A stretch of 61,181 bases of DNA from a virus. A program made the translations under genes and the position numbers. The notes beneath the pieces were generated by a model. That model had not been told where the DNA came from and did no database searches. It saw only the letters and a program-made list of their open reading frames with translations. Below are positions 845 to 50,278 of this stretch, in pieces (position 1 is the stretch's first letter; each line of letters opens with the position of its first letter). The stretch is taken from positions 1-61,181 of the IMG/VR virus record IMGVR_UViG_3300035698_020078; one strand, given 5' to 3'.

Positions 845-1440
845 AAGTAATGGTATATGATACGGAGACTGGCGGACTAGACTCTACTAAGCATAGTGTC
901 TTTTCCGTTGGTGCTCTCGTGGGTGACTTAGACACTGGTGAAATTCTAGATATGTTTGAGGCATATCATCGTCTACCGAGTGTAAACGACTATGTTTATG
1001 GTCCTAAGGCAATTGAAATTCACGGCATCACACCACAACAAGCTTTTGACAATGGTATCTCTACCGAAGAGATTCAGGCTAAGTTTGTTGATATGTGGAA
1101 TGACCACTGTCCATCCCTGCTCGGTGGGCACAACGAATTTTTTGACCGCTGCATGATGAGTGATCAAATTTTCCAATGCTCTCGACAAGAGTTTGAAGCC
1201 AATTTTAGTTATCGTGCCATCGACACACTGCCAGTCATTAGGCTTATTACCGGACACGACAATGTTGCCTCTGGTGCATCCTTGACGCAGGCTATTAAAC
1301 TTCTGAATATTGATATGAGCGATTATGGTAAGAATAAGTTCCACGCCGCTTTGTTCGATAGTATCTGTACATTCCGAGTCGCACACAAGGTTCGCTCGGT
1401 TTTCAAAAACGCTGACGTAGCAAAACTTTTAACAAAATGA
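841..1440 (+). CDS. DnaQ-like 3'-5' exonuclease (DEDDh family)
   Basis: This 199-residue protein has all three exonuclease motifs of the DEDDh superfamily. Exo I is DTETGG with D7 and E9, Exo II is HNEFFD with D102, and Exo III is H168-x4-D173. These residues bind two metal ions for hydrolysis of single-stranded DNA or RNA from the 3' end. It could serve as a stand-alone proofreader for the phage DnaE-type polymerase at 46976-50278 (a DnaE needs a separate DnaQ-type subunit), or as a RNase T or ExoX-like trimming enzyme; the partner is inferred. The ATG at 841 is chosen because it overlaps the previous stop and begins directly at the first beta strand. Confidence 0.85.
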   Translation: MKVMVYDTETGGLDSTKHSVFSVGALVGDLDTGEILDMFEAYHRLPSVNDYVYGPKAIEIHGITPQQAFDNGISTEEIQAKFVDMWNDHCPSLLGGHNEFFDRCMMSDQIFQCSRQEFEANFSYRAIDTLPVIRLITGHDNVASGASLTQAIKLLNIDMSDYGKNKFHAALFDSICTFRVAHKVRSVFKNADVAKLLTK

Positions 1441-1628
1441 AACAACGAGAAAGAGATTATCAACGTACTGTCCTCCAGGCTAATGGATGGACCTCTGGCA
1501 ATGGACTTAAGAAAAACGGATCCTTCAAGTGGATTTGGATTCATCCTAGTCGTACTAAGGCATATAGTCGCCAAGAAGCTTTTGACATTGTTCAAAAGCA
1601 ACTTTCCCGCAAAGGCGTGCGGGTGTAA
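1437..1628 (+). CDS. small basic hypothetical protein (63 aa)
   Basis: The ATG overlaps the stop of the exonuclease gene. The 63-residue product is strongly basic and rich in Arg, Lys and Trp, with a KWIWIHP core, and could bind nucleic acid. No family is recognised. Its place between two nuclease genes suggests a role in DNA metabolism, but this is context only. Confidence 0.6.
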   Translation: MKQRERDYQRTVLQANGWTSGNGLKKNGSFKWIWIHPSRTKAYSRQEAFDIVQKQLSRKGVRV

Positions 1629-1631
1629 TGC

Positions 1632-2117
1632 ATGAATTACAGATTCGACAGCCGTAGCAAAGACCAGTTCGAGCAAGACATTAAGGACCGCACACTCAAA
1701 GAGCGTGACCTATTTTTTGCCTGGCTCGACTACGTTGAAACTCAGTCTGGAACTAGGCCGGAATTCACCGAGACAGGATGCGGAAATCATGGAGATTTTC
1801 TAGATGACGCAGACGTATCGACGGCACCAGACTTCAATGTAGAGGGATACGGACATGTCGAAGTCAAGTACTCAGACCCACTAATTAAGCGTGACTTTCA
1901 TTTGAAAGCTAATCAAGTGAAGGCATACGAAAAGATGGGGGCAACAATTTTGATGTTTAACGGTTGCCGAGAAGAAACGCCAGTATTTACGATGCTTAAG
2001 CCTGAGGACTTGAAAGAAATTATTGATTCATACCCAGTGATTCACTTTCAGGGCTTCGGTGGTAAGCCGTCGTATAAAATTCCCGTGTCAGAATACATTT
2101 GGAGATCAGTTAAGTAA
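1632..2117 (+). CDS. PD-(D/E)XK superfamily nuclease
   Basis: This 161-residue protein contains a textbook PD-(D/E)XK site: P66-D67, then after nine residues E77-V-K79, followed by a helix with K92 and Q95 where this fold usually has its motif IV residues. Such enzymes cut DNA with Mg2+ bound by the Asp and Glu. The gene sits directly upstream of the SMC/Rad50-like ATPase (TAATG junction at 2115-2119), an arrangement expected for end-processing nuclease-ATPase pairs in recombination. A joint role is inferred. The N-terminal 50 residues are charged and helical, with no known domain recognised. Confidence 0.72.
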   Translation: MNYRFDSRSKDQFEQDIKDRTLKERDLFFAWLDYVETQSGTRPEFTETGCGNHGDFLDDADVSTAPDFNVEGYGHVEVKYSDPLIKRDFHLKANQVKAYEKMGATILMFNGCREETPVFTMLKPEDLKEIIDSYPVIHFQGFGGKPSYKIPVSEYIWRSVK

Positions 2118-3331
2118 TGAAAATTATTAAGCTATATGCAGAAAACGTTAAACGTATTCGGGCAGTAACCATTGAGCCCACAAGTAACACGGTAGTTATC
2201 TCTGGCATGAACGAGAACGGAAAAACTTCTGTTCTCGATACTATTTGGCTAGCCCTTAAGTATCGTGCCGCCTCAAAGGAAATCCCCAATCCTATTCGTG
2301 CCGGTGAGGACGAGGCTATCATTGACCTCGACCTTGGAGAGTACATCGTTACTCGTAGAATTACGGCAGACGGAGTTCGTCTTGAGGTTCGGGCACCAGA
2401 CGGCAATAAGATTTCTTCGCCCCAGACGCTATTGGACGGAATGGCTGGTGACCTTTCGTTTGATCCATGGGAATTCTCCAGGATGAAGGAGCCCGAGCAA
2501 CGCAAGCTGCTAGGCGATCTACTTTATCGTTTAACGGAGGGCGAGGTTGATTTGGCCGAATACGATGCTCTAATCGAAAAGGCTAAAGAAGAACGAAAAG
2601 ACGTTAACAAAGAACGTAAACGCTTAAGTACTGTTCTTAGTACGTTAGCTCCACCTAAGGCCGACGAGCCCACGATTGAGGTTTCTTCAACAGACTTAGT
2701 GGACAAGCTTGAAAAGTCAAAAGAAATTGAGGATGCTCAGGCTCGATTGATTGAGTTCGAAAAAGAGATCGACAGGATTGAAAAAGAGCGTGTCTTGATT
2801 AAGGACTGGTTGGGCAAGAATGCCGATCAGCACGTTCCTCAGGATCAAATCAAGGATCAAATTGAATCGCTTGAAAAAACAAACAAGAGGGTTCGCGAGA
2901 TTCAGGATTACAACAAAAATAGAGACGCCTTAGTTGACGCTGAGGCTAAATACAAAGAGTACAATGACACGATCGAATTGGCTCAAATTAATAAAGATGA
3001 GGCCCTAGAGAATTCTCCTCTGCCGGTCAAGAATATTCGCCTTACGCCCGATGGTCTTATGGTTGTTACTAAGGGTGGTCACGAAGTTCCGTTCCGCCAG
3101 GCATCGGCCGCACAACGCCTCAAGATTTCGCTTGGAATTGCCATGGCCACGAACCCTGCCCTTCGCGTGATTAGGATCGCTGATGGATCACTTCTGGATG
3201 ACGAAAGCATGCAGATTATTCGCGACATGGCGGACGACGAAGACTTTCAAGTTTGGATCGAATACGCATCAAGAAACGCAAACGATAGAATCGGTGTGTA
3301 CATCGAGGATGGTCTAATTGTCCCAGATTAG
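2117..3331 (+). CDS. SMC/Rad50-like AAA ATPase
   Basis: The 404-residue protein starts with a beta strand and a P-loop GMNENGKTS (residues 30-38). It continues with a long charged region predicted as coiled coil (about 150-300) and ends with a serine-rich signature-like SAAQRLKISLG segment and a weak Walker B. This is the layout of small phage Rad50/SbcC or RecF-like ATPases that work with nucleases in double-strand end processing, as T4 gp46 does. The coiled coil is much shorter than in cellular Rad50. The Walker B region (VIRIADGS) lacks the usual DE pair, so the catalytic glutamate is uncertain. A nuclease gene lies immediately upstream. Confidence 0.78.
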   Translation: MKIIKLYAENVKRIRAVTIEPTSNTVVISGMNENGKTSVLDTIWLALKYRAASKEIPNPIRAGEDEAIIDLDLGEYIVTRRITADGVRLEVRAPDGNKISSPQTLLDGMAGDLSFDPWEFSRMKEPEQRKLLGDLLYRLTEGEVDLAEYDALIEKAKEERKDVNKERKRLSTVLSTLAPPKADEPTIEVSSTDLVDKLEKSKEIEDAQARLIEFEKEIDRIEKERVLIKDWLGKNADQHVPQDQIKDQIESLEKTNKRVREIQDYNKNRDALVDAEAKYKEYNDTIELAQINKDEALENSPLPVKNIRLTPDGLMVVTKGGHEVPFRQASAAQRLKISLGIAMATNPALRVIRIADGSLLDDESMQIIRDMADDEDFQVWIEYASRNANDRIGVYIEDGLIVPD

Positions 3332-3344
3332 TGTAATTAGAGGC

Positions 3345-3351
3345 AAGGAGG
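3345..3351 (+). promoter_or_regulatory. strong ribosome binding site AAGGAGG
   Basis: AAGGAGG lies 8 bases before the ATG at 3360. It decides the start of the gene 3360-3743 against a TTG at 3318 and is one of the few full-length Shine-Dalgarno sequences in the plus block. Confidence 0.85.
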
Positions 3352-3359
3352 CATCCCTA

Positions 3360-3743
3360 ATGACGCTCAAATTGAATTGGAACAGACTTACAGACATTAA
3401 CACACGCCTCAATGAAGATAAGGATTTTGAGTCAACCGACCAAATGAACTTCATTATCATCCTTAAAGATGAAAAGGTAATAAATACTAGTGTTGACCTT
3501 AAACACTTCTTAGTATTTATGTGGAAAATAACAGAACGTAAAGGCAAAGAAATAATTGGTCTTATCGTAAAAGATCCTTGCGGCATAGAGGTGTTTCGAT
3601 ATAAGAGAGTTAATCGCGGGAACGAAGAAATCCCAGAAGGCGGCAACTGCGATGCGGTTATCAATTGGAATTCGTTAAGTCGGCTTGAAAAAGACGTATA
3701 CATCAAACTACTTATTTCGCAAATTAATGGAAGAACTGAATAA
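3360..3743 (+). CDS. hypothetical protein (127 aa)
   Basis: The start is fixed by the AAGGAGG eight bases upstream. The 127-residue protein is a mixed alpha/beta chain without cysteine pairs, signal peptide or membrane segment. It is not recognised. It lies between the SMC-like ATPase and a sigma-like factor, and its end overlaps the sigma-like gene by 17 bases. The strong ribosome binding site suggests it is made in larger amount than its neighbours. Confidence 0.7.
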   Translation: MTLKLNWNRLTDINTRLNEDKDFESTDQMNFIIILKDEKVINTSVDLKHFLVFMWKITERKGKEIIGLIVKDPCGIEVFRYKRVNRGNEEIPEGGNCDAVINWNSLSRLEKDVYIKLLISQINGRTE

Positions 3744-4272
3744 TCCCATCGAAAGTGTTCCCCATAATGAATGGGATGCTATCGTAAACTCAACAATTAG
3801 ACGTTTTGTTCCAATCTGTGCTAGAGATAATATCTTGTCCATTGATGACCTAAGGCAAGAAGCCTGGATAGGAATTCTCAGTGCTCGACAAAAATACGAC
3901 CATACAAGAGGAACAAAATTTGTTAGTTATGCAATTAGTTGGATTAACTGGCACATCCTTCGTTTAATTGACCATAAACTAAAATTGAGGAAGAAACCTC
4001 GCTGGGTTTCGGAAGAAATCATTGATGATGAGCAGTGGTATGTCAATGAGAATAACAATGAAGAGGTCATGGATACCGCTATCGAATATCTGAGCGATCA
4101 AAAACACATTGACATGTTTATTGACCATTTCGTAAAAGGCGAAACATTTCAATCGATTGGCAAAAGATACGACTTATCTCGTCAACGTGTGCATATGATC
4201 GTAACAAATATGGTCAGCACTTTAAAGCTTAAAATGAATAATGAGAACGCCGAAGACTCTTGTACTTATTGA
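3727..4272 (+). CDS. sigma-70 family-like transcription factor
   Basis: This 181-residue protein resembles small sigma-70 family proteins. Residues 38-82 match sigma region 2, with a DDLRQEAWIGIL helix followed by a YDHTRGTKFVSYA block, the part that binds core RNA polymerase and the -10 element. Residues about 140-165 form a helix-turn-helix (SIGKRYDLSRQRVHMIV) as in region 4, which reads the -35 element. It probably redirects host RNA polymerase to phage promoters. The ATG at 3727 is preferred over the TTG at 3685. A second, different sigma-like gene is at 46121-46771. Region 3 is absent. Confidence 0.78.
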   Translation: MEELNNPIESVPHNEWDAIVNSTIRRFVPICARDNILSIDDLRQEAWIGILSARQKYDHTRGTKFVSYAISWINWHILRLIDHKLKLRKKPRWVSEEIIDDEQWYVNENNNEEVMDTAIEYLSDQKHIDMFIDHFVKGETFQSIGKRYDLSRQRVHMIVTNMVSTLKLKMNNENAEDSCTY

Positions 4273-9643: not shown

Positions 9644-9869
9644 CGTACCCGCAACCCTAGATCGTATCCTGAGAGAGCGTCTAGATCAATTTGACGTGCC
9701 TACAGAAGTTCGTCAAGAAATCCGCAGGGAAATTCTGGCTTTCTTTCAACGTCCAGAGAAAAAGCCTTTTGGTGCGGCAGTAATGACGCCCGCCGCTAGC
9801 ATTGCGGCTGATCAGGCTAGAAAAGAAGGAAGGAACGCGGGCCCCGAAGGTCGCCCGGAAATTATCTAG
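9630..9869 (+). CDS. small hypothetical protein (79 aa), last gene of plus block
   Basis: The ATG lies within the last codons of the previous gene. The product is charged and helical in its first half (RILRERLDQFDVPTEVRQEI) and Ala/Gly-rich at the end. It is not recognised. Its TAG stop (9867-9869) overlaps the stop of the convergent minus-strand gene, so this is the end of the plus-strand transcription unit. Confidence 0.62.
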   Translation: MAKNDVPATLDRILRERLDQFDVPTEVRQEIRREILAFFQRPEKKPFGAAVMTPAASIAADQARKEGRNAGPEGRPEII

Positions 9870-10210
9870 CGGCCTTCCGCCTTACGCTCCATTCGTTCGA
9901 GCGTAGTATTAATACTTTTGACGACCATTGTTAGGTCGGCAGTTACGCGGGTCGTGCTTTTCACGAGTTCCGCGTATTCTTTTGTCGTCTCTTTCTGGCT
10001 GTCAATGTTCATTACGTTGCTCTTTTCGAGCCTTTCAGCAAGAGCATTAATTCGCTTGTCACAGGCGGTACGCTCTTCTTTATTCTCTTTTTTCAATTGC
10101 ATAAAAAGATAAACGAAGATTGCCGTCAGTCCTCCGCTTGGGCCGAGAGCCTTGACTAATTCAAACAAAGTCGTGTCTGATACTATGTCTTGCATAAATG
10201 ATAATAGCAT
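9866..10210 (-). CDS. holin-like small membrane protein
   Basis: The 114-residue protein has one clear membrane segment (about residues 25-38, GGLTAIFVYLFMQL) near the N-terminus, followed by a long charged helix with coiled-coil character. This topology matches BhlA/UviB-type holin-like proteins and other small phage membrane proteins. It is the last gene of the minus-strand block, after the fibre genes, a usual place for lysis functions. No endolysin gene is visible next to it. An AGAGGA ribosome binding site sits six bases before the ATG at 10210. Confidence 0.5.
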   Translation of the reverse strand: MLLSFMQDIVSDTTLFELVKALGPSGGLTAIFVYLFMQLKKENKEERTACDKRINALAERLEKSNVMNIDSQKETTKEYAELVKSTTRVTADLTMVVKSINTTLERMERKAEGR

Positions 10211-10211
10211 G

Positions 10212-11636
10212 TCAATTCCTCTTTGGTCCTACGTATTCAATCCAAAATACTACACCTCTTGCAACCACTATTGCCGTTCCGGCTGCTGACGCTTTTGAAA
10301 CATCGATGGAAATTAAGCTTCTGGCATTGGCATGCACCAATGCGGAGAACCCTATTCCGCCCGCCACACCATTGATCGCACGAATAGAGGACTTTGCGGA
10401 TACGCGAGTACCATCTACGTCCACGTAAACATTATGAGTATTAGCTCCACCAGTAGTGGAAGTAGTCACGGATCCATGTACTCGATACAGCCCCGGAACA
10501 AAAATACGTACTCCAGTACTAGAGGAATCATAAGACATATATTGATCTCTTTGATACCCCCTATTATTAGCAAGTACTTTATTTGTGCTAGGATCAACTG
10601 CCGTAAAGGTTTGGTTAGAAACGCCATTTGAAAATTCCTGAATACCAGACGTATGTGCAAGAGTAATAATACCCGATCCGGTAGTAACAGCCAGCGTATC
10701 AATGCCGAGAGATTTGGCCGCTGGACTATCGTTAACGCCTAATCCGGCATTACGACCTAACTGCCCATGAGTCATCATAGTGACCCCATAACGACGAGTG
10801 TCTTGCGGAAGGGTGGTAATACCGGAAACTACAAGTGGCGGATTATCACCAGTCAGCGTGCCTAATGCTAATGTAGCATCGTCCACATTAACAGTGAGAT
10901 CAAAACCAGTTATCGACAGATTAGGGCCAGCTTCGTAAGCTTCTTGAAGATTAGCTACACCGCCAGCGTTTTCCAGAATCATTTGGAGCACATGGCCCGA
11001 GTGTGGAATGGGAACAAAATCATTATTTCCGGCACCTACATAAGTATGCCAAGCCTCGTTCGGTCCAAACAAGTAACGTAAATTGCCGCTACCATTAGTA
11101 GTCGTGCTGCCAAAAGCACTAAGAATAACGTTTCCTTGAGCACCAATTTGAACGTCGCTATTACTAGAAAGAAATTGAACCGTGTTTTTTGCTGTAGCAA
11201 CGATACCGCCTTCTGCCGCACTTAAAATTATAGGTGCAACGCCACTCGTAGACAGCCTCAGTATGTTGTCGCCATTAATTTCAATTTCGGGCGATTCAAG
11301 CCTTAGTTCCGTCCCTGTAATAATATTGGCAGCGGTCGGAACATGTAGATCAAAAACTCCATCTATCAAGCATGTTACTCTTGGAATATACCCAAAGTTC
11401 GCCCCGACGCCAACGTCCGCACCACAGAATTGAAGCTTATCATATGAACGTCCTTCTCGAAAACGAAGAACACCCGAGGTTCCCATCATTGGGTCGTGCA
11501 GAATGCCACTATTGCAATGAATATGGGCAAAAGGAAATAATTCCTCATGATTGAATCCACCGAATCCAATCTGATCTACGCCAAGGCTGGCGGTACCACT
11601 TCCACGCGGTACTAAATCACCTACAAATTGAGCCAT
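10212..11636 (-). CDS. virion fibre-like protein with C1q-like C-terminus
   Basis: The 474-residue protein has an N-terminal module (GDLVP..SGTASLGVDQ, later LHDP..GTSGVLRF) shared with the next gene upstream (11638-12420). A beta-rich, low-complexity middle follows, and then a C-terminal domain of about 120 residues with alternating hydrophobic strands (VPGLYRVHGSV and related) resembling C1q/TNF jelly-roll heads of phage fibres. The shared N-terminus probably docks both proteins to the same virion site, and the head would bind a receptor. ATG at 11636 is preferred to GTG at 11645 because it aligns with the start of the paralogue. Confidence 0.68.
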   Translation of the reverse strand: MAQFVGDLVPRGSGTASLGVDQIGFGGFNHEELFPFAHIHCNSGILHDPMMGTSGVLRFREGRSYDKLQFCGADVGVGANFGYIPRVTCLIDGVFDLHVPTAANIITGTELRLESPEIEINGDNILRLSTSGVAPIILSAAEGGIVATAKNTVQFLSSNSDVQIGAQGNVILSAFGSTTTNGSGNLRYLFGPNEAWHTYVGAGNNDFVPIPHSGHVLQMILENAGGVANLQEAYEAGPNLSITGFDLTVNVDDATLALGTLTGDNPPLVVSGITTLPQDTRRYGVTMMTHGQLGRNAGLGVNDSPAAKSLGIDTLAVTTGSGIITLAHTSGIQEFSNGVSNQTFTAVDPSTNKVLANNRGYQRDQYMSYDSSSTGVRIFVPGLYRVHGSVTTSTTGGANTHNVYVDVDGTRVSAKSSIRAINGVAGGIGFSALVHANARSLISIDVSKASAAGTAIVVARGVVFWIEYVGPKRN

Positions 11637-39044: not shown

Positions 39045-39199
39045 TTTTGTCTAGCCTTCATTACCTTGACCCATGTGTCCTGTGATGGACGAAAATTAAA
39101 ATCGCGAAACTCTTGTGTGTGCTTCAACTCTCCATCTAGATTATACCCGAAGAACTCCGAAACGTCAATGTCTACAAAAGCTTTCTTTTCAGGCTGTTT
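39032..39199 (-). pseudogene. orphan 3' end of a glycosyltransferase gene
   Basis: This 55-codon frame has no plausible start. Its product, read from the end of the homing endonuclease gene, contains FVDI..SEFF, LKHTQEF and W-x2-VMKARQKW. These line up one for one with the C-terminus of the glycosyltransferase at 39932-40798 (FVSI..EYF, LKKHQEF, W-x2-VMRQGKKW). It is therefore the tail of a homologous gene, cut off by the endonuclease insertion between them. The stop overlaps the next gene in the normal way, so this tail is probably the ancestral end of the gene at this place. Confidence 0.7.
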
Positions 39200-39954
39200 T
39201 TATTCTGAGCAAATCGAGACAATACTTTTTTTGCCTTTTTGCCATGAACACGATACATACAAGCATTAGAATGTTTGGTATTTTTATATGGCAATGACGT
39301 ATCTATATCAAAATATCGATTAATAACTACCCTTAGTTCTTTTAAAAATGTTTCGCTGCCAACAAATGTAATTGTTAAATAACTACGCTTGTCGTGATAA
39401 ACACAACCATCACCATCAAAGTATCCAGAAATGTAATCAATTAGTAGTTCATCTTCAACGTCTGGTAACTCTAAAATATGAGATTTCTTGCCAGAGGGAA
39501 TATTCCATACATCATTTAGTGCCTTACATAAATCCACAGACTGAACCAAAAGAACGACACGACCAAAGACTCCAAAATTAGTTTTACGGTCACTTTGAAC
39601 ATTAATTGGCCCACCATAACGCAAATACTTTTTTAAAGAACTCAGGTGATTCTTATCTTTTAAAGCAAGACCAACATTCAGTTGTGAACCCAAGGTAATA
39701 TGTCCATCGGCAGCAATAAAACCAGCCCAATAAGCTGCGTTAGGTGTAAAATCACTAAAAGCATCAAACCACAAATCATACTGACGATTTGAATTTCTTG
39801 AGTCTCCTTTTAACCCCAAGAAAAAAGCTTTCATTGAAATTGCATCATACGAACGTCCAGGCAGTTTTTCAAGTAGTTCGACTCTAGAACGACACTGACC
39901 ATAGTATTTAGTCAACATTGATATCTCTTCACTACTCCATTTCTTGCCACCCAT
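39172..39954 (-). CDS. LAGLIDADG homing endonuclease
   Basis: The 260-residue protein has two LAGLIDADG helices, AYWAGFIAADGHI near residues 74-86 and LIDYISGYFDGDGCV further on, so it is a monomeric double-motif endonuclease that cuts a long asymmetric DNA site. The N-terminal 50 residues form a helix-turn-helix-like DNA-binding part (WSSEEISMLTKYYG). ATG at 39954 has GGAG eight bases upstream, inside the end of the preceding glycosyltransferase gene. It is free-standing: no intein splice residues are present. The gene is richer in A and T than its neighbours, which fits recent arrival. Confidence 0.92.
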   Translation of the reverse strand: MGGKKWSSEEISMLTKYYGQCRSRVELLEKLPGRSYDAISMKAFFLGLKGDSRNSNRQYDLWFDAFSDFTPNAAYWAGFIAADGHITLGSQLNVGLALKDKNHLSSLKKYLRYGGPINVQSDRKTNFGVFGRVVLLVQSVDLCKALNDVWNIPSGKKSHILELPDVEDELLIDYISGYFDGDGCVYHDKRSYLTITFVGSETFLKELRVVINRYFDIDTSLPYKNTKHSNACMYRVHGKKAKKVLSRFAQNKNSLKRKLL

Positions 39955-40798
39955 AATCATTTCTCCATTTTTTACCTTGCCGCATAACATCAGACCACAT
40001 TGTTCTGTCTGGAACCTGTGGCCAACGCTCTACGAATTCTTGATGTTTTTTAAGATGGGTCTCAAAATGGTGAGGAAAATATTCTGCAATCGACACGAAT
40101 GTATCCCAGTTATTAAGCCATTTATTAGAGTTCTCTAAAGAATCTGGGCGTTGCGTGTAAATAGTGATAAAGTCTTGAATCACATGGCCATAATACCCAA
40201 GAGACATAAAATACAACCATAATCCATAATCGAATCCAGATGTTAATACACTAGCTCGTCTTTCGAGATGTTCCCAATTCAGAGAATCGCGGAACTCCTT
40301 GTCATTACGCCATATCACCTGTGGACCAGCCCAACACTCTCTGGTCATAAGCTCGAAATCAAACGGAGGCTTTAGCCCGCGTCCTTTTACTCTACCAGAC
40401 TCATCGATGATTGTCAAGCCGCCGTATCCAAATCCGATCTTATTTGGTGGCCCCAAAGGACCTACAGCAAGCTTCATGTGCTTGAAAACTGTTTCCGTCG
40501 TGTGCGGCTCGTGATAATCGTCCGTATTGCTATTCATCACGAAGTCGCCCGTCGCAGCTTCCCACGCACGTAGCCATGATGCACCGTATGGCTCGCGTTT
40601 TTCGTAGAAAATATACTTAACGCGGGGATCTTGAATTTCCCATTTGCGAGCAATAATATCGTCTGTTCCGGGAGAATCTGGATTGACAATAACAATCTCA
40701 AAATCAGGATCAGTCTGACGATCAATAAGATCGGCCATATGGCGATCTAAAAAGTGACCAGAGTCATAAGTTGAAACTAAATAACTAACTTTAGTCAT
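39932..40798 (-). CDS. glycosyltransferase family 2
   Basis: The protein (about 288 residues) has the GT-A start VSYLVSTYDSG, an IVIVNPDSPGTDD strand, WLRAWEAATGDFVMNSNTDD, in which NTDD is the DxD-type site, and a C-terminal helical part. It directly precedes the homing endonuclease, and its last 47 residues have a second, diverged copy beyond that endonuclease (39032-39199). The C-terminus may thus have been supplied by the inserted element. ATG at 40798 (TGATG) is preferred to GTG at 40801. Confidence 0.88.
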   Translation of the reverse strand: MTKVSYLVSTYDSGHFLDRHMADLIDRQTDPDFEIVIVNPDSPGTDDIIARKWEIQDPRVKYIFYEKREPYGASWLRAWEAATGDFVMNSNTDDYHEPHTTETVFKHMKLAVGPLGPPNKIGFGYGGLTIIDESGRVKGRGLKPPFDFELMTRECWAGPQVIWRNDKEFRDSLNWEHLERRASVLTSGFDYGLWLYFMSLGYYGHVIQDFITIYTQRPDSLENSNKWLNNWDTFVSIAEYFPHHFETHLKKHQEFVERWPQVPDRTMWSDVMRQGKKWRNDYGWQEME

Positions 40799-41001: not shown

Positions 41002-42028
41002 TGATAGTCATCCCATTGTGATAGTGCTGCATTTTAGGGGTCGCCTGTCCCGTCATGCATAAGTAAATGTTTCCGTATTCTTCCCTAGCAAGAACCTTAC
41101 TGTAAAATGGATCATCTTTCCAGTTGACAGTAACATTTGGCTTGTGAGAACTAATCATACTCGGCAGTGGCTTTCCATCTTCCGCAAAGTAAATATCAAG
41201 CCAGGGATTTGGTCCATCGTAAGACAAGACCGGCTCAGTTCCATCAAACCAATCTGTAACCTTTTGATCAAACTTCTTGTTAGCTCCACCATGGGCGGCA
41301 AGTTCTTTCTCATAGTACTCCTGTTTCTCCTTCATGATTTCGTTCATGCCACGACGAGCGTAGCCATAATGATAAATGAAGAAGTCATTCAACATAACGC
41401 GGCGGTGCTGGTAATGAGGAGAAAAGTAAGTGCAGTGACCAGCCGGATCGGTCACAACAGGATGACTATTGTATTTCATGCCACGCACGTACTTAAAGAT
41501 GCGTTGATGCTGCGGTTGCCATTCGGGGCCAGGAACGGCAATATGATTACAGTCTCCATAGAAATGTAGAAAGCTAGGAACAAACTCGCAAGCGTGCGGG
41601 TTTAAATCGATAGCACGCCGTAAGCGTCTAATATCCTCTGGAAGATAAAACTCGTCAGCGTCATTGATAATCAACCAGTCGCCAGGAACAGACATGTCGA
41701 GGAATGTTTGCTTCATTTCCTCTAAGTTTTTCCATGGCTTTTTAATGGAGATTACTAGTACTTTATTGTCGGGATCTTTATTTGCTTTAAAGTCCGCAAT
41801 GATCTCGGCGGTGCGATCCGTAGAGTGGCCATCCTTTGTAGAGTTGGGGCGACTCTCGACTGCACCCTCAATAACGATAATACGGTCTACCTCGTCGTAG
41901 ATCGATCCAAGGACAGCTTCCGCAAACTCCTCCTCATTATGCATTTGAATACATTGAACAAGGCGAATAGGGCGATTGACACGATCGGCAATCGACTTCA
42001 TTTGGGGTTCGTAATAGATTTGATTCAT
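40994..42028 (-). CDS. glycosyltransferase family 2-like
   Basis: The 344-residue protein has a HNEEEFAEAVLGSI block, a RIIVIEGA strand, and a DWLIINDADEFYLP motif, in which DAD is the metal-binding DxD. A C-terminal HYQHRRVMLNDFFIYHYGYARR region is seen in GT2-like proteins that act on glycans (GT92/GT2-like). Donor and acceptor are unknown. It overlaps the Acb2-like gene by eight bases. Confidence 0.85.
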   Translation of the reverse strand: MNQIYYEPQMKSIADRVNRPIRLVQCIQMHNEEEFAEAVLGSIYDEVDRIIVIEGAVESRPNSTKDGHSTDRTAEIIADFKANKDPDNKVLVISIKKPWKNLEEMKQTFLDMSVPGDWLIINDADEFYLPEDIRRLRRAIDLNPHACEFVPSFLHFYGDCNHIAVPGPEWQPQHQRIFKYVRGMKYNSHPVVTDPAGHCTYFSPHYQHRRVMLNDFFIYHYGYARRGMNEIMKEKQEYYEKELAAHGGANKKFDQKVTDWFDGTEPVLSYDGPNPWLDIYFAEDGKPLPSMISSHKPNVTVNWKDDPFYSKVLAREEYGNIYLCMTGQATPKMQHYHNGMTINE

Positions 42029-43263
42029 TGTTCTAACGTTTGTTTGTCTCCCTCGAATTGAACGAAGCCACTTTTCGCGTAGCTTTCAACAGCCTTCTCT
42101 ATCTGCTCACAGATTTTTTCTGAAACCCTTCTGTAGTCAAATCTATCGGCAACGTTCTTGGCGTTCTCTCGCCTATTAAGTACGCTCTGCCATTCTTGTG
42201 CGTTTTGCTCATTTAACTGACCGGCCTCGTGACCTTTCTTAAGCATGTGAAACCTTTGCATGGTAATAGCCATTTCTGCAACAGACGGCTCAAAACATTG
42301 TTCAAGACCAGTGAATAGTCCTGGATCCTGATGTGGCATATTGTAGAAGAAGCCCATTGATCCGCTATAGACTAAGGCATTGTCTGGCGTAACAAACTCG
42401 GCCAGTCCGGTTTGATTATGACTAATGACCGTATTGCCATAGGCTAAGGCATCAAATACAGGAATACCCCATCCTTCTGCCCGACTAGAACAAACATATG
42501 CGTCACCGCGAGTATGCAGACCAGCGATTTCTTCATCGGTCATGGTATACACGACTGGAAGAACCGGAGGAAGCTCGGCAGGAATTCGACACTTTGCCTT
42601 AACGTCGTTAATGTATCCCTTGACAATTTCCATGTCGTTGTCGCGGCCCTGCATATTGACGTAAGTCTTAAGAACTAATAGTACGTCATCTTTCATACCA
42701 GCAAATGCGGCATAGTAAGCACGAAGAAGCGAATCAACCCCCTTCTTAGAACTTAGCTGGCAAATGTTATAGAACACAGTACGATCACCGGCCTGATCAA
42801 TGGCAAAAGGAGTGACTTCTTTTTCGTACAAATCTTTGTCACACGGCGGCGACGCGACTAGAATAGGCTTCTGAATACCAGACTTAAGTAGGGTCTCGGC
42901 GTTATATCTAGAAGGCACAATTAGAAAGTCAAATTCGTTTGCTTTCTGGGCCCAGGTGACTTGCAATCGATCGGTCTCAAAGAATGTGTAAAGTCCATTG
43001 ACGATCCCCGGAACTGGGTTGGCTTCAATATTGCACGTAGTCATTTGAATGGCTACGTCTACGTCCATTAGGTCTTTCTCAAGACACTCTGTCATCCATT
43101 GTGGTGCTTCAAATAATTGACCAGCATCTAGCTGATCATATTTGAGACTACGAGCAACTACATCAATTTTATCACTTTCAAGCAAGGCCCTCATGAACTC
43201 GCGAGAAGCATGGGCAAAGCCACTAAAGTCTTGAAGGGGTCCAGTAAATAATAGCTTCATCAT
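42025..43263 (-). CDS. glycosyltransferase family 4 (GT-B)
   Basis: The 412-residue protein has an N-terminal GPLQDFSGFAHASREF acceptor-side motif, ICQLSSKKGVDSLLRAY at the start of the donor half and SSRAEGWGIPVFDALAYGNTVISHN, the classic GT4 donor motif (E-x7-E-like with E and D). A C-terminal helical extension of about 70 residues is present. Start is ATG-ATG at 43263, overlapping the previous stop. Confidence 0.9.
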   Translation of the reverse strand: MMKLLFTGPLQDFSGFAHASREFMRALLESDKIDVVARSLKYDQLDAGQLFEAPQWMTECLEKDLMDVDVAIQMTTCNIEANPVPGIVNGLYTFFETDRLQVTWAQKANEFDFLIVPSRYNAETLLKSGIQKPILVASPPCDKDLYEKEVTPFAIDQAGDRTVFYNICQLSSKKGVDSLLRAYYAAFAGMKDDVLLVLKTYVNMQGRDNDMEIVKGYINDVKAKCRIPAELPPVLPVVYTMTDEEIAGLHTRGDAYVCSSRAEGWGIPVFDALAYGNTVISHNQTGLAEFVTPDNALVYSGSMGFFYNMPHQDPGLFTGLEQCFEPSVAEMAITMQRFHMLKKGHEAGQLNEQNAQEWQSVLNRRENAKNVADRFDYRRVSEKICEQIEKAVESYAKSGFVQFEGDKQTLEQ

Positions 43264-46121
43264 ACAAATTCCTGAGTTTTTCTTTCGGGTGCTTTAACGC
43301 CACTGATTTGTCTACGGACATTATCTCGATACTTACTAGCGTCCGATTGCTGGTTGCCGATTGAAACAAACTGATTCATAAGCTGCTCGCGGGTCGCCCC
43401 CATTTCTAAATGCTTCACCCATGTCTTAGCTCCTTCCGAATCAACGGAAGGATATTTAAGAACTGCCGTATACAGCCAATCAACAAACTGCTCATTACTT
43501 AATCCAGCAGGCACTTGAGCGGGAACAATATCTACATGGCTTTCAATAGGAGAATTCCAGGTGGTCTCACGATTGAGAGGCTTAATGTTCTCCAAAACGT
43601 AATCCCACTGTTTCCATAGCTTATTCCAATCGTAGTTTTCTTCGGCACACTCTCTCGCCTCGACGCCCATTTTCTTGAGACGTTGCTCGTCTGACAGAAG
43701 GGCGAACATTTTGTCCGCAAGATCACTAACGTCCGGGTGAGCACGCTTACAGCTAGTCTCTGGCTCGTAGTAATATCGGCCAACATCAATCACTTCGCCG
43801 CCCTTATCTAAGGTGTAATTGGACTCGTTCATTCCGATATCCTCGAAGTGATCGTAGTCGGGATAACGTCCCTTTTCTCTCATTGCCGTGTAGTCCGTCA
43901 CAAGGGTAGGTACACCGCAAGCTTTGGCTTCCTGAATAGGCATGCCGTCTCCTTCACAGATAGAGCACTGAACATATAGGTCTAGAGAATTATAGAGCTT
44001 AGAAAGTTCTTCTCTGCTAAAACCAACGCTAGTATTCGGCGGTGACGCCTCCTGTTGTCCACAGTGAGGACACGGAAGCTTGATACGCCCATCTTGAATC
44101 GGCTGATTATGCAAGTTCATCGCAAAGGTCATGGAGCTTTGGCCGCACCCATGACAATACATGCTTTGCATGATGCTACCACGAATTCCTTTGTGATAGT
44201 GATCCATCCACGGGTACGACTCAAGACGCATGATATGTCTCGGGTAATCAAACGAGTGAGCATTATCTGGCCACGAAGAATGAATAACAAGCACAGCCTT
44301 GTCGGCTACGTCATTACCCTTGTAACGCTTCTTCATTAATGCGAAAGCGTCAATGAGATCGGGGTATAGCTTGCGGCTTTGATTACGCATGACCGTTCCA
44401 ACAATAGGAAGACCGGGATTTAAATTCCAATAGTCACGAACTTCTTTCTTGTCCATCGGCTTAAAAGTCTCAAGATCAACCCCAGGACGCATAGCCTTAG
44501 GAAAAATCTTCATCTGACGTTTACCATTAGGAAGAGTTACGGTTTGATTTCTAAGAGTATGAACACCGTAATCAGAATAAGCTAATACGACATTTGCATT
44601 CTCGTAAGTTTTAATCCATTCTTCTAGCTGTGGCTCGGCGTCTACGGTTGGCATAATACAATTATGTACGGCACAAGTTGTTATAAACGAATGATCTTTT
44701 TCAACTTCAAGGTCATAAACTCGAAGCTCGTCGTTGTATAATTTTATATCTACAACGGGCATAAATAAATAATTCTGTTTATTCAAAACTCTTGTAAACT
44801 GTTTTTGAGCTAGTTGAGTATTTCTAGATTGATAACTTATTAATTCCTTTTTAAAATCTAAAACACCATGATCGCTAAGACGAATAGTATATCCTTCTTG
44901 ATTTCTACGATCACCTAGTCGCACTGAATATCCTAATCTTGATAATAAATTACTAACCTGACAAGCCAACGTCTTAGATTTACTAAACATTTCAATAGAC
45001 GGCGTGTTATGATTAGTTTTAGTAACACAACCGTCACCATCAAAGTATCCATTCAGCAAAATACGTGCTTGTCGATCATCAAGATTATAAAAGCACGAAG
45101 GTATAATTTTATTGCCACAAGAGTCATAAAATTGACTAAAATACGTCTGTAATTTCTTACTATTGATGCGAATACTTGTTCCTTTATCAGACGTTTGTTT
45201 ATGTTCTATCTTATAATCAGAAAAGAATTCACTAATTCTATTTTGCGTCTCAATTTCATCAATATGAAAAGCAAACGATATACGATTACGATCTCTAGCA
45301 CAACCGTCGGCTAAAAAATGACCAATAACCCATAGTAATTCATCATCAACATCAACATGCTCAATGTCTTCTTTATCGCATGGTACTAACAAATAGTCCC
45401 CTTTTTGTACGTCAGATGCTTTTATAAACCTAGCATTTTCAATTGACACCGCAGACGCTACTGTATCGTATCTCCTGCGATCGTTATTCCATGGTCGCAC
45501 GCACTTAGGAACTACTAGAATTTCATGGTCAGCAGTACTAGTCATGGGTTCGGCCATACCTTCCGCTGTCAAACGAACCATGTTACCATTATAAATATGA
45601 CTAGATGTATTTGTCACGCAACGAGATTGACCAGTGTGAGAAATAACGGTATCACCAATATTAATATCTTCAATATTAGAAACTTGATTATATTGTCTTC
45701 GAACCGGAGTGCCAGCAGGAAAACACCATTTATACCAATCTCTAAAGGCACTACGTTCTTGGTACTCAAGCATCCACCAGTCACGAATATCTACAACAAT
45801 GTCTGGCTGAAAATCAGCGAGAACACCGTCAAACTTATACTCTCCAAACTGGTTGGTGTTTTGACCACGCCCTCTTGGGTGAGCACACGGCTGATTAAAA
45901 GCTCGTGCCTCTTCGTCGTTCGTGGGCATTACTCCGTAAAACTTCCAGCGGCCCTGAATGAACTCATGGGCCCGAACGTCGTCCTGACGAACATAAGAGC
46001 CTAACTCCGCAAGTTCATATTTTCCAGTAGCAGCCAAACGAACCAAAAGTTCACGATAGTAAGTTGAAAAACCAGTGTTCAAAAAACTAGCTTCACCAAT
46101 AAATAAAATTCTCTTTTTCAT
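43260..46121 (-). CDS. glycosyltransferase (GT-B) interrupted by an intein
   Basis: The reading frame of 953 codons holds a glycosyltransferase in two exteins. Residues 1-132 are the N-terminal Rossmann half. Residues 488-953 complete it, with VGTVMRNQSRKLYPDLIDAF and a donor site CSICEGDGMPIQEAKACGVPTLVTD, the GT4 E-x7-E pattern. A Cys-rich zinc knuckle (CHGCG and CPHCG) lies between, and a C-terminal region of about 90 residues resembles DUF4214-type repeats. Splicing out 355 residues would give a 598-residue enzyme joined as WYKW|CIMPT. The start is TAATG-coupled to the sigma-like gene. Confidence 0.92.
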   Translation of the reverse strand: MKKRILFIGEASFLNTGFSTYYRELLVRLAATGKYELAELGSYVRQDDVRAHEFIQGRWKFYGVMPTNDEEARAFNQPCAHPRGRGQNTNQFGEYKFDGVLADFQPDIVVDIRDWWMLEYQERSAFRDWYKWCFPAGTPVRRQYNQVSNIEDINIGDTVISHTGQSRCVTNTSSHIYNGNMVRLTAEGMAEPMTSTADHEILVVPKCVRPWNNDRRRYDTVASAVSIENARFIKASDVQKGDYLLVPCDKEDIEHVDVDDELLWVIGHFLADGCARDRNRISFAFHIDEIETQNRISEFFSDYKIEHKQTSDKGTSIRINSKKLQTYFSQFYDSCGNKIIPSCFYNLDDRQARILLNGYFDGDGCVTKTNHNTPSIEMFSKSKTLACQVSNLLSRLGYSVRLGDRRNQEGYTIRLSDHGVLDFKKELISYQSRNTQLAQKQFTRVLNKQNYLFMPVVDIKLYNDELRVYDLEVEKDHSFITTCAVHNCIMPTVDAEPQLEEWIKTYENANVVLAYSDYGVHTLRNQTVTLPNGKRQMKIFPKAMRPGVDLETFKPMDKKEVRDYWNLNPGLPIVGTVMRNQSRKLYPDLIDAFALMKKRYKGNDVADKAVLVIHSSWPDNAHSFDYPRHIMRLESYPWMDHYHKGIRGSIMQSMYCHGCGQSSMTFAMNLHNQPIQDGRIKLPCPHCGQQEASPPNTSVGFSREELSKLYNSLDLYVQCSICEGDGMPIQEAKACGVPTLVTDYTAMREKGRYPDYDHFEDIGMNESNYTLDKGGEVIDVGRYYYEPETSCKRAHPDVSDLADKMFALLSDEQRLKKMGVEARECAEENYDWNKLWKQWDYVLENIKPLNRETTWNSPIESHVDIVPAQVPAGLSNEQFVDWLYTAVLKYPSVDSEGAKTWVKHLEMGATREQLMNQFVSIGNQQSDASKYRDNVRRQISGVKAPERKTQEFV
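44661..45725 (-). mobile_element. intein with LAGLIDADG endonuclease domain
   Basis: The 355-residue insert starts with C133 in block A (CFPAGTPV) and has block B TADHEIL (197-202 region). Two LAGLIDADG-type helices follow (VIGHFLADGCA about 264-274 and LLNGYFDGDGC about 354-363), then block F (RVYDLEVEKDHSFIT) and the C-terminal AVHN (484-487), followed by extein Cys488. All residues for class 1 protein splicing are in place (Cys1, block B TxxH, penultimate His, terminal Asn, +1 Cys). The DNA is visibly richer in A and T than both exteins. The nucleotide borders follow from codons 133 and 487. Confidence 0.94.
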
Positions 46122-46771
46122 TAAACTGCCTCCTGAATGGCACGTTGAATTTTCTCTTTTAATAATGCCTCAATCTGATAAACCTTATTAACTGAAATCA
46201 ATAAGTCATCCGACAGTGATTGTGCTGAATCAGTCCCCATAATTCTTCTACTAACGATTTCTTGTTCCGTGTCGTTTGTGATTACGCTTGAAATAATGTT
46301 AGAAATGATTAGCTCGTCTCCGCTGGGGTCTTCGATATTGTCATCTTGCGTTGAGTAAACGAAGCGTCTATCGTAAGCCAACTTTAATGCCGCAACATGT
46401 GATTCGGAAATATTACGACTACTGGTAGCAGTTAGCTTTTCGGCAATCTCACTTTGCGATAATCCTTCTTCACTTAATTTGTTAACTTTTGAGGCCAACC
46501 CCGTAGTTCTAAAATCTACAGTGAACACGCCTAGAAATCTAGCGGCCTCGTTGTATATGTCGCGGCGTACAGTGCGAGCGACAAAAGACTTAATTGACAT
46601 ACCCTTAGTAGGATCGTAAGCGTCAATGGCCCGCAAAACTGCTACGTTGCCAACTTGGTGTAAATCATTTATATCTAGAGCATTAGAAGAATAACGTGCT
46701 GAAAGAGCAATACGCCTAACGATTGGGGCATACTCTTTTAACAGTGCTTCAATATCAAGATCATGATACAT
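46121..46771 (-). CDS. sigma-70 family-like factor
   Basis: The 216-residue protein has a region-2-like helix pair (IVRRIALSARYSS, then DINDLHQVGNVAVLRAIDAYDPTKGMSIKSFVARTVRRDIY), as in sigma-28/70-type factors, and a later region (about 90-125) with GLSQSEIAEKL like region 3/4 helices. It differs in sequence from the plus-strand sigma-like protein. ATG at 46771 is chosen because it overlaps the previous gene slightly; an in-frame start at 46888 would overlap it fully. It lies between the replication and glycan genes and could switch on either. Confidence 0.78.
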   Translation of the reverse strand: MYHDLDIEALLKEYAPIVRRIALSARYSSNALDINDLHQVGNVAVLRAIDAYDPTKGMSIKSFVARTVRRDIYNEAARFLGVFTVDFRTTGLASKVNKLSEEGLSQSEIAEKLTATSSRNISESHVAALKLAYDRRFVYSTQDDNIEDPSGDELIISNIISSVITNDTEQEIVSRRIMGTDSAQSLSDDLLISVNKVYQIEALLKEKIQRAIQEAV

Positions 46772-46979
46772 TAGCTTTCTTTGTGGCTCTCTTGGGCTTT
46801 TTAAACCATAGCATCGGTGCTGAGAATGGATAGAGTGCTTCCCATCCATCTGCTCCGCGTCTATTAATAATGTCACGAATGATACCATTAATCTTTTCCA
46901 AGTTGGCTATTCCAACCTGCATTGCGGCCTGATCCTCTTCTGATAGAGGAATATTCTCAAAGTCGTATTCGTATTTCAT
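46761..46979 (-). CDS. small hypothetical protein, DUF4177-like (72 aa)
   Basis: The core (INRRGADGWEALYPFSAPMLWFKKP) has the glycine-x-x-Gly-Trp-Glu pattern of DUF4177-type small proteins. The rest is helical with a basic tail. It overlaps the polymerase stop by four bases. The function is unknown. Confidence 0.55.
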   Translation of the reverse strand: MKYEYDFENIPLSEEDQAAMQVGIANLEKINGIIRDIINRRGADGWEALYPFSAPMLWFKKPKRATKKANVS

Positions 46980-49900
46980 TTCAGTCTAGTTACATTATCA
47001 GCGATCAGGGACCCCCTGTCATTAATTTTCCCAGAAATCTTAACAACATTTCCGGGCTCTAGTAGCCTCTTGACTTTATCAAACACTCTAGGAAAAACTA
47101 CAAAGTCGTTCATCATATAAGTATCGTCTTTCACAGTCAAGAATGCCATGGGTTCCTGATTCTTGGTAAGGATTTCTCGCATGCCATCTACGCATACGGC
47201 AACCTCAAAACGCATTCCGTCATAGCCGTTCCTAACAAGGTCTATACATTTATGCTGACTCTTGTAAACATCGGCCTCACTACCGCTCAGGGATAGGCCC
47301 AAGAAATTGTGTTCCCAGGCAATGTTTTGAGCACGACTATCGAAAATATCGTACTGATCGTATTCGACTAGAAGCTGGCGAATTGCTTCTCGACGCCGAC
47401 TATTAGGAACTTTAACGCCATATCTCTCTTTAACGATATCTACCTTACCTTCGTCGGACAAAGCACGGACGAAACGAACCCAGTCATCAACCTCAGCATT
47501 CTGAGACATCAATTCTTGAATCGTTTCAAGCTCCTTAGCTGTCATGCTATTGAGTAGAGTATAATTAGCAAGACAACGAACACGATGTTCTTCTATGTCA
47601 TCAAACGCACCGCCTTTAATCAGTGCGTTCATAACGGTAGAAGTAACTTTTGTTTTAGATGTAGCAATAGACCATATTACTTGGTCAAAGTTGCTGCATT
47701 TCTTAGTCACTCTTGTTAGATCGTTAATGGCGGCAGCACCTACCCCTTTGAGGGCAGATAAGCCAAACGCAATGCTAGAATCATTAACAACTTCAAACGT
47801 TTTGTTTCCAAGCGAAGCCCTCGGCGGCACGACATCTAGTTCAAAAAGCTTGCCGTCATAAACAAGGGCACTCATTTGTTCAAACTTATCGGGATGACTT
47901 TCTGAGTGTCTAAGTTTAGCACAGAAAAATTCAACTGGATAATTTGCTTTCAAGTACGCTGTTTCATAGGCGAGTAGAGCATAACCAACGCCGTGAGACT
48001 TGTTGAATCCATAGCCAGCAAACTTTTCAATGTAGCCCCAAATTTGATCCGCAATAGAGGTTTCAATCCCTCCCCTCGAGCACCCATCCACAAAAAGCTC
48101 CTTCCATTTACGCATTTCTTCTGGCTTCTTCTTACCCATGGCCTTGCGTACTTTGTCGGCGTCAATCAAAGACATCCCAGACAATTGCTTGCAGATTTCA
48201 ATGACTTGCTCCTGATATAAGAGAGCAGAATACGTACTGGACATGATCGGCTCCAACGAGGGATGAATATAACTGGCGTCGCCGCCGTTCTTGACATTTT
48301 TGTAGAACTCATGCATGCCGCTTTCCATCGGCCCAGGTCGAATAATCGAGATAAGGTCAGACAATTGCTCAATGTTGAACGGCTGCAAATTCTTGCTCCA
48401 CGTTCGACCAAGCTGCTTTTCAATCTGAAAAATACCAACGGTAAAGCCCTGGGAAATCATGGCCCAGGTTTTTTCGTCATCCTTGGGAATACTCTTGCGT
48501 TTAATGGCAATGTCATGCCTGGTTTTTACTAGATCGCAAGTAACCTGAATATCATCGAGGGTGGTTAGGCCAAGAATATCAAGCTTAAGAAGACTTAGGG
48601 AATCAACAGTGCCCATGTCCCAGCCAAAGATCAGATTACCATCTTTTGATCTGGTGAGCGGATACCAACTCTCGTCAAATGGCTCATCGGAAATTACTAC
48701 GGCAGCAGCATGAATGCCCGTACTCTTGTAACAGCCTTCAAGAGATAGTGCAATCTTGAACCACGGAGTATACTTGTCGTAATACTCTTTAAGCTGGGGA
48801 ACCGTATCAATTGCTTCTTGCAGTGTGATTGGAATGTGTTCGTCGTTCTTAGACGGCACAAGGCTTGTAATGGCATTGGCCTCATCGAACGGCATATCAT
48901 AAACTCTAAAAACCTCTTTGAGAACAGCCTTTGCCTGTAGTCCACTGAGCGTAACAAGTTGGGCAACATTGCCACTGCCAAACCTTTCTCTAATGTAGTC
49001 TAGAACCTTTTGTCTTTTCGACCGAGGAATGTCTGAGTCAATATCCGGCAAGCCGCCACGACCTTTGTTAAGGAATCTTTCCCAAATAAGACCGTACTCA
49101 ATAGGATCAATTTCAGTAACACCCAGAGAATAACTAACAAGGCTACCCCCCGCACTACCCCTTCCATAGCCAACCATAATGCTTTGGCTCCTAATCCAAG
49201 ACACAACGTCGTGAACGATGAGGAAGTAGTCGGCAAATCCCATTTCTGAGATGTCTTTGAGTTCCCGGTGGAGCCTTTCGTCGTATGTTTCAAAATCATC
49301 CCCCTTTTTGCCATTAAGACCAAGCTCAATCATGCCCGCCTCGCAGAGTTCCGTCAAGTAATCCATAGCATTCTTGCCCTCTGGAATAAACTTGTACTTA
49401 GGAAGACGACGAGCTTTTAGGTCGATCTCCACGTTGCATCGTTCGGCAATATCTACCGAAGCCGCAAGTTCAGATTCTTCAATATCTAATCCATCAAAAT
49501 CTTCAACACTCTTTAAGTAGTATTCTTCGGCTGAAAAATCTGCTCGCGTAGACTTGCTGAATTTGTTTTGATTCATTTCCAACAGTGTTCTATGAGCCTC
49601 GGCGTCATGCTGCTGAACATAATGAACGTTGTTACTTGCTACGGTCTTAACGCCATACTTTTGTGCAAGAGTACGTAAACGAGGATTAATGATCTTCTGG
49701 TCCGCAAGACCGTGATCCTGAACCTCAAGAAAGAAATGCTCTTTGTCGTAAATCTTAAGGAATCTACGAACTAAACCGTCAGCCTTAAATAAGGCGGCGG
49801 GCGAAAAAATCTCACCGTGATCATCTTTCTTGTCGTAAAGATTTGAAGAAATAACTCCGTCAAAACTACTTCCAGTAAGACAGATTACGCCCTCGCTGTA

Positions 49901-50278
49901 TTTTTCTAGTAGGGCAAAATCAACACGAGGATTGTAGTAATAATAATCAGGTGAATGGGCGTCAGAAACAAGCCTGGCAATATTCTTCCACCCCTTTTCA
50001 TTCTCTGCCAAAAGAACAATATGAGAAACCTGACGTACTTTTTGATCCTTGGCTTCTTTGGCGTCCTCGCAAAAGAATAGATCAATACCCATGATAGGCT
50101 TGATGCCAGCGTTCGTAGCCTCTCTGTAGAAGGTGATTGCATTGTACAGATTTGAATAATCTGTCAAGGCTACTGCCGACTGCCCTAGCTCCTTGGCTCT
50201 TGCTACGACGTTTTTAACATCGGCAGAGCCATATAGCATGGAGGCTTTAGAACGTACACTCAGGTTTACAAAACTCAT
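46976..50278 (-). CDS. dnaE: DNA polymerase III alpha subunit (DnaE-type)
   Basis: The 1100-residue protein is a complete C-family polymerase. It starts with a PHP domain (1-260), followed by the palm with GYGRGSAGGSLVSY (370-383) and the catalytic PDIDSDIP (411-418), in which the first two aspartates match E. coli D401 and D403. Fingers follow, with a C-terminal OB-like region ending in VVKISGKIND. The PHP site looks inactive: the HxH motif is replaced by VRS (8-10), and Y41 stands where TDH is usual. Proofreading would therefore need a separate exonuclease, such as the DnaQ-like protein at 841-1440. Confidence 0.95.
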   Translation of the reverse strand: MSFVNLSVRSKASMLYGSADVKNVVARAKELGQSAVALTDYSNLYNAITFYREATNAGIKPIMGIDLFFCEDAKEAKDQKVRQVSHIVLLAENEKGWKNIARLVSDAHSPDYYYYNPRVDFALLEKYSEGVICLTGSSFDGVISSNLYDKKDDHGEIFSPAALFKADGLVRRFLKIYDKEHFFLEVQDHGLADQKIINPRLRTLAQKYGVKTVASNNVHYVQQHDAEAHRTLLEMNQNKFSKSTRADFSAEEYYLKSVEDFDGLDIEESELAASVDIAERCNVEIDLKARRLPKYKFIPEGKNAMDYLTELCEAGMIELGLNGKKGDDFETYDERLHRELKDISEMGFADYFLIVHDVVSWIRSQSIMVGYGRGSAGGSLVSYSLGVTEIDPIEYGLIWERFLNKGRGGLPDIDSDIPRSKRQKVLDYIRERFGSGNVAQLVTLSGLQAKAVLKEVFRVYDMPFDEANAITSLVPSKNDEHIPITLQEAIDTVPQLKEYYDKYTPWFKIALSLEGCYKSTGIHAAAVVISDEPFDESWYPLTRSKDGNLIFGWDMGTVDSLSLLKLDILGLTTLDDIQVTCDLVKTRHDIAIKRKSIPKDDEKTWAMISQGFTVGIFQIEKQLGRTWSKNLQPFNIEQLSDLISIIRPGPMESGMHEFYKNVKNGGDASYIHPSLEPIMSSTYSALLYQEQVIEICKQLSGMSLIDADKVRKAMGKKKPEEMRKWKELFVDGCSRGGIETSIADQIWGYIEKFAGYGFNKSHGVGYALLAYETAYLKANYPVEFFCAKLRHSESHPDKFEQMSALVYDGKLFELDVVPPRASLGNKTFEVVNDSSIAFGLSALKGVGAAAINDLTRVTKKCSNFDQVIWSIATSKTKVTSTVMNALIKGGAFDDIEEHRVRCLANYTLLNSMTAKELETIQELMSQNAEVDDWVRFVRALSDEGKVDIVKERYGVKVPNSRRREAIRQLLVEYDQYDIFDSRAQNIAWEHNFLGLSLSGSEADVYKSQHKCIDLVRNGYDGMRFEVAVCVDGMREILTKNQEPMAFLTVKDDTYMMNDFVVFPRVFDKVKRLLEPGNVVKISGKINDRGSLIADNVTRLK

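Follow-up and report, generated by a model that had tools for sequence, protein, structure and literature searches.

Intein hosts are biased to DNA metabolism and ATP-binding proteins. A survey of mycobacteriophages found inteins in terminases, nucleases and nucleotide enzymes, with several insertion sites per gene and seven in terminase-like proteins (PMC5050341). In haloarchaea, some invasions of the MCM helicase gene require co-conversion of the +1 residue, the first residue after the intein (PMC10643990). The locus described here lies in a 61,181-base virus record, the whole of which is called the window, and its host protein is a glycosyltransferase (GT).

Precursor, intein and gene neighbourhood

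The frame at 43260-46121 on the minus strand of the window encodes 953 residues with no internal stop. It had been annotated in a first pass as a GT-B glycosyltransferase that contains a complete class 1 LAGLIDADG intein, and profiles, motifs and empty-site homologues agree with that reading. The features of the locus are as follows (bases of support in brackets).

43260..46121, minus: glycosyltransferase precursor, GT4-type, GT-B fold, C-terminal DUF4214 (profiles; fold from the model of the relative L002)
45726..46121, minus: N-extein, residues 1-132, ending DWYKW (alignment to intein-free homologues)
44661..45725, minus: class 1 LAGLIDADG intein, 355 residues, CFPAG...CAVHN, site a (profiles, structure model, alignments)
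45723..45725, minus: block A Cys1, precursor Cys133 (sequence)
45525..45536, minus: block B TxxH, here TADH, intein residues 64-67 (alignment)
45303..45335, minus: first LAGLIDADG motif, LWVIGHFLADG, intein residues 131-141 (profile and alignment)
45030..45059, minus: second LAGLIDADG motif, LLNGYFDGDG, intein residues 223-232 (profile and alignment)
44679..44720, minus: block F, VYDLEVEKDHSFIT (TIGR01443 match and alignment)
44658..44672, minus: block G and +1 residue, AVHN/C, His486, Asn487 and Cys488 (TIGR01443 match and alignment)
43260..44660, minus: C-extein, residues 488-953, starting CIMPTVDAEPQ (alignment to intein-free homologues)
42025..43263, minus: second GT4 gene, which follows the GT directly in the majority of distant relatives examined as well (profiles and synteny)
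46121..46888, minus: sigma-70-like factor, between DnaE and the GT (profiles and synteny)
46976..50278, minus: phage DnaE-type DNA polymerase, conserved upstream neighbour, intein-free (profiles and synteny)

The intein comprises precursor residues 133-487 and is inserted after Trp132, between ...DWYKW and CIMPT..., so that the 953-residue precursor is predicted to become 598 residues upon splicing. The lengths given in the first-pass annotation (355 residues for the intein and 598 for the joined exteins) proved correct on recount, and Cys133, His486, Asn487 and Cys488 all stand where it had placed them. The Glycos_transf_1 profile scored 42.7 bits on the precursor (cut-off 26.4), the GT domain of the C-extein, which has the EX7E motif at E723 and E731 (precursor numbering), remaining above the profile cut-off despite the intein. 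The extein also matched phrog_2170 (E 4e-21).

On the intein itself LAGLIDADG_3 (PF14528) scored 44.6 bits (cut-off 22.5) and intein_Cterm TIGR01443 26.5 bits (cut-off 15.6), and Pfam Intein_splicing gave 31.9 bits, slightly below its cut-off of 35.8. Cys1, TxxH, the C-terminal His-Asn pair and Cys+1, which define class 1, are all present together with two LAGLIDADG motifs that retain acidic residues (LADG and DGDG). Cys1 is invariant in all those inteins at sites a, b, c and d (see below) whose N-terminus is covered, and the inteins of the window and of L026 share one more Cys, at intein position 351. The PI-SceI/VMA, PI-PfuI and PI-PkoII inteins share Cys1, TxxH, block F, His-Asn/Cys and the two LAGLIDADG motifs. 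A structure model of moderate confidence (pLDDT 67, built from three sequences) resembles the solved PI-SceI, TliVMA and PhoVMA inteins (best E 4e-16), matching PI-SceI and the VMA inteins across its full length, as expected of a Hint fold. The best structural matches were of the PI-SceI/VMA type (1vde, 7qsu and 1jva), with sequence matches to 1dq3 and 2cw7. From these motifs and matches we infer that the window intein both splices and acts as a nuclease. The solved inteins differ from it in host protein, here a glycosyltransferase, and identity to them is only about 15%. Relatives in bacterial and archaeal genomes are mostly about 25% identical, higher values being seen over short stretches only. 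Among 50,697 phage records 69 were similar to the intein; the 30 of these that were listed are mainly DNA methylases, ribonucleotide reductases, helicases and a portal protein, none is annotated as a glycosyltransferase, and their identity to the window intein does not exceed 26%. DnaE, DnaB, RecA and ribonucleotide reductase had been described as intein-free, and the 61-kb record indeed gave no second Intein_splicing match.

The GT gene belongs to a sugar cluster (22634-46121) of at least eight glycosyltransferases plus a GDP-mannose 4,6-dehydratase and methyltransferase- and IMPDH-like genes, which adjoins replication genes. The cluster also contains a free-standing LAGLIDADG gene (39172-39990, minus; PF14528 36 bits) that overlaps the end of a GT2 gene, is weakly similar to the intein (29% over 97 residues) and has an ortholog in the same place in L002 (80% identical). 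Diverged LAGLIDADG genes are found elsewhere within the GT clusters of L024 and L003.

Empty and occupied sites in relatives

A search of a viral collection gave 24 viral loci encoding relatives of the joined exteins. The nearest, L002, has an empty site and is 83% identical across extein residues 1-598 in a gapless alignment, both coding sequences being 1797 nt when the window exteins are joined. A clean 355-residue gap in homologues had been set beforehand as the test of the intein call, and L002 supplies it. Gene order is also the same in the two (primase-like gene, DnaE, sigma factor, GT, second GT4, GT2, GT2). Before junction-directed scans were made, an insert was seen in only the window, L024 and L026 among the 132 distinct GT translations listed, and about 120 further family members were likewise without the window-type intein. 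Scanning for MPTVDAxPQ, a conserved stretch, covered at least 120 contigs, and intein frequencies are therefore approximate. All GT relatives are metagenomic contigs of uncultivated phages; no named phage with this GT was found, INPHARED phage records included.

The junction-directed scans of the viral collection brought further inteins to light, giving four sites: a (W132/133), b (M117/118), c (V109/110) and d (366/367, at the EX7E motif). Sites a, b and c fall within 24 residues. GT inteins are present in about nine or ten viral lineages, one of which has two (c and d). Site a is occupied in the window and in L026 at the identical codon boundary, the inteins being 52% and the exteins 37% identical; a general HN-x-x-MPTV search gave chance matches only and no additional site-a intein. 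L024, a close relative of the window GT, has a different intein at site b, 15 residues upstream of a and after DIRDWWM; further site-b carriers are L183 and L179/L184/L185. The site-c inteins (L182, L244 and L243/L245/L246) end just upstream of DIRDxWM, and those at site d (L245/L246/L249, L247/L248 and L250) are inserted at the EX7E motif. The GT with both c and d inteins has 1333 residues in two metagenomes (L245 7446-11447 and L246 7427-11428), and L243/L249 are pieces of it from a third metagenome record.

Several observations concern individual carriers. The site-d inteins of L245, L248 and L250 end in Gln rather than Asn (VYQ/C, TFQ/C), an uncommon C-terminus. The site-c intein of L182 has apparently lost its LAGLIDADG acidic residues, and an HNH-type free-standing ORF lies directly upstream of the GT gene (about 9864-10560), which could possibly provide homing in trans. 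In L026 the DnaE gene is apparently fractured (1267-4157): its N-half closes with the N-part of an intein (CLDPETVVY...), next comes a separate ORF resembling an endonuclease (2115-3036), and the ORF after that begins with an intein C-part that precedes the DnaE C-half (MVVSN/SHSVAYAKD), a layout that we take to resemble the published 'fractured gene' split-intein arrangement. LAGLIDADG_3 matches in other long frames (600-1100 residues) of the records behind L250 (G012), L185 (G008) and L244 (G009) suggest more inteins in other genes of those phages.

The sites were placed on a structure model of L002 (mean pLDDT 88), which has two Rossmann-like domains and a predicted GT-B fold, its best PDB match being 3oy2 (E 2e-17), with MshA and BshA also found, all GT4-type. 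Sites c and a lie inside beta-strands of the N-terminal Rossmann-like domain, site b lies in the helix between those strands, and site d directly precedes the first Glu of EX7E, whose E368 and E376 are invariant. Conservation at the four junctions ranks between the 80th and 96th percentiles of 589 junctions (the top 20%), and the chance that four random junctions would be equally conserved is about 0.002. The first-pass annotation had placed the insertion at a conserved segment and argued that splicing is needed for activity. The segment is conserved and site a is mid-strand in the L002 model, and splicing is for that reason very probably needed: 355 residues placed inside a core strand would be expected to abolish the activity of the unspliced form. 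As an unspliced copy should be dead, the GT presumably matters to these phages.

The residue at +1 in intein-free members differs by site. Ser or Cys is found at site d in 75 of 76 aligned members, and this site thus supplies a ready-made nucleophile. At site c 34 of the 76 have Cys, and at site a 23 have Cys, Ser or Thr. Cys is present at site b in only 2 of 76, so there it largely accompanies the intein. L107, L117, L180, L181 and L083 are intein-free GTs with Cys at +1 of site b or a, which could be native or the scar of a lost intein.

Horizontal movement and rival readings

In the intein tree sequences cluster by site (support 100/100 for a, 99/99 for b, 100/100 for d and, weakly, 46/80 for c). 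In the extein tree the two a-bearing GTs, those of the window and L026, are far apart, and an AU test rejected joining them (p = 2e-7). For b-bearing exteins one pair was rejected (p 1e-33) and another was not (p 0.16). Since its exteins are so distant, the site-a intein appears to have moved horizontally between homologous sites in a homing-like manner. Inteins were more similar than their exteins in eight of nine same-site pairs, the exception involving L182, although common descent with losses should leave inteins at least as diverged as exteins. The window intein has 34.6% GC, compared with 45.2% for its extein and 43.5% for the whole window. Together, tree, identity and GC form the pattern that horizontal, site-specific homing would predict. 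Compared codon by codon, the inteins of the window and L026 differ at 143, 101 and 211 of 353 first, second and third positions (40, 29 and 60%), which shows constraint at the protein level. The idea that extein sequence was co-converted along with the site-a intein (CIMPT in the window, VVMPT in L002) was rejected as no tract was seen, DNA identity to L002 near the site being at background. L083, in the same clade and 69% identical, has Cys at +1 of site a without an intein, and an older native Cys is therefore just as likely as co-conversion.

We consider it very likely that the window insert is a selfish element, namely a class 1 intein that carries a LAGLIDADG homing endonuclease domain and excises itself to restore a 598-residue GT4 enzyme. 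The precursor would be translated in frame, after which the Hint domain would excise itself by the N-S shift at Cys1, transesterification to Cys+1 and Asn cyclisation, joining ...DWYKW to CIMPT... to give an ordinary 598-residue GT4 glycosyltransferase. In a mixed infection, copies of this GT gene that lack the intein would be cleaved by the endonuclease domain, and the allele with the intein would then serve as the repair template. DIRDxWM, KWxxMPTVDA and EX7E, all conserved in the GT, offer stable targets, and site-specific intein lineages have invaded four sites in different phages.

That the 355 residues are instead an ordinary domain of the GT, or a chimera made in assembly, is almost certainly wrong. 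We found nothing in favour of it, and it is already contradicted by the gapless junction in intein-free homologues, by L026, from an independent metagenome, where a related intein interrupts the gene at exactly the same codon boundary, and by the two-intein (c and d) GT in three metagenome records (L243/L249, L245 and L246). A degenerate intein that has lost splicing or only cleaves, leaving the GT inactive or working as two halves, would account for the Intein_splicing score a little below cut-off. It is nevertheless most improbable given that every class 1 residue is present, the 953-codon ORF is intact, the C-extein GT domain scores above cut-off and L002, an intact homologue with no intein, matches the exteins at 83% identity.

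The suggestion in the first-pass annotation that splicing is a timing switch for glycosylation found no support. A selfish homing element suffices for everything seen: nearly all relatives lack the intein, which is AT-rich against its host gene, keeps both LAGLIDADG motifs and has moved between distant phages. An intein kept as a post-translational switch, in which conditional splicing (for example redox control via Cys1 and Cys+1) times GT activation during infection, would fit the Cys nucleophiles and the extra Cys at position 351 shared with L026, and conditional splicing is known for other inteins, such as that of Mycobacterium smegmatis DnaB (PMC6195587). However, the intein is dispensable in nearly all relatives, the 83% identical L002 among them, its distribution tracks site and homing rather than phage lineage, its LAGLIDADG motifs are retained, and PMC4031507 reported that, as of 2014, no evidence of physiologically relevant conditional splicing had been discovered; we therefore think this very unlikely. 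Also unlikely, if conceivable, is that some of these phages have turned splicing at the active-site motifs into a switch that responds to conditions and controls an essential GT, whose gene is usually just downstream of that for DNA polymerase and whose product perhaps modifies phage DNA or the virion. If true, this would explain the repeated invasion at four sites.

On the selfish-intein reading, a strongly conserved and probably needed phage GT can match helicases or terminases as an intein target. Family members with an empty site and those with a, b, c, d or c plus d together form a natural collection for testing homing specificity, which also suits tests of neighbouring-site exclusion and of acquisition of the +1 residue.

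Relation to described inteins and glycosyltransferases

The extein is of a familiar kind: phrog_2170 and the GT4 enzymes MshA, BshA and the chlorovirus NY2A GT (3oy2) share its GT-B fold, EX7E motif and extein match, although the phage family to which the window GT belongs has no match in INPHARED phage records. Full-text searches of papers available without subscription gave no description of an intein-bearing glycosyltransferase. The mycobacteriophage inteins in terminase, DNA methylase, ribonucleotide reductase and portal genes (PMC5050341) have the same patchy presence and the same placement in conserved functional motifs, whereas most of their host proteins are enzymes that act on nucleic acids or NTPs, and no word starting with 'glycosyl' occurs in that paper. 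The haloarchaeal MCM helicase (PMC10643990) likewise has four neighbouring intein sites in one gene, in a different host protein; in the GT family few intein-free members have the +1 Cys of site b. The window intein is thus of the ordinary and well-known class 1 LAGLIDADG kind. Its host-protein family is unusual, and the notable part is the multi-site hotspot that this GT family forms outside the usual DNA-handling proteins.
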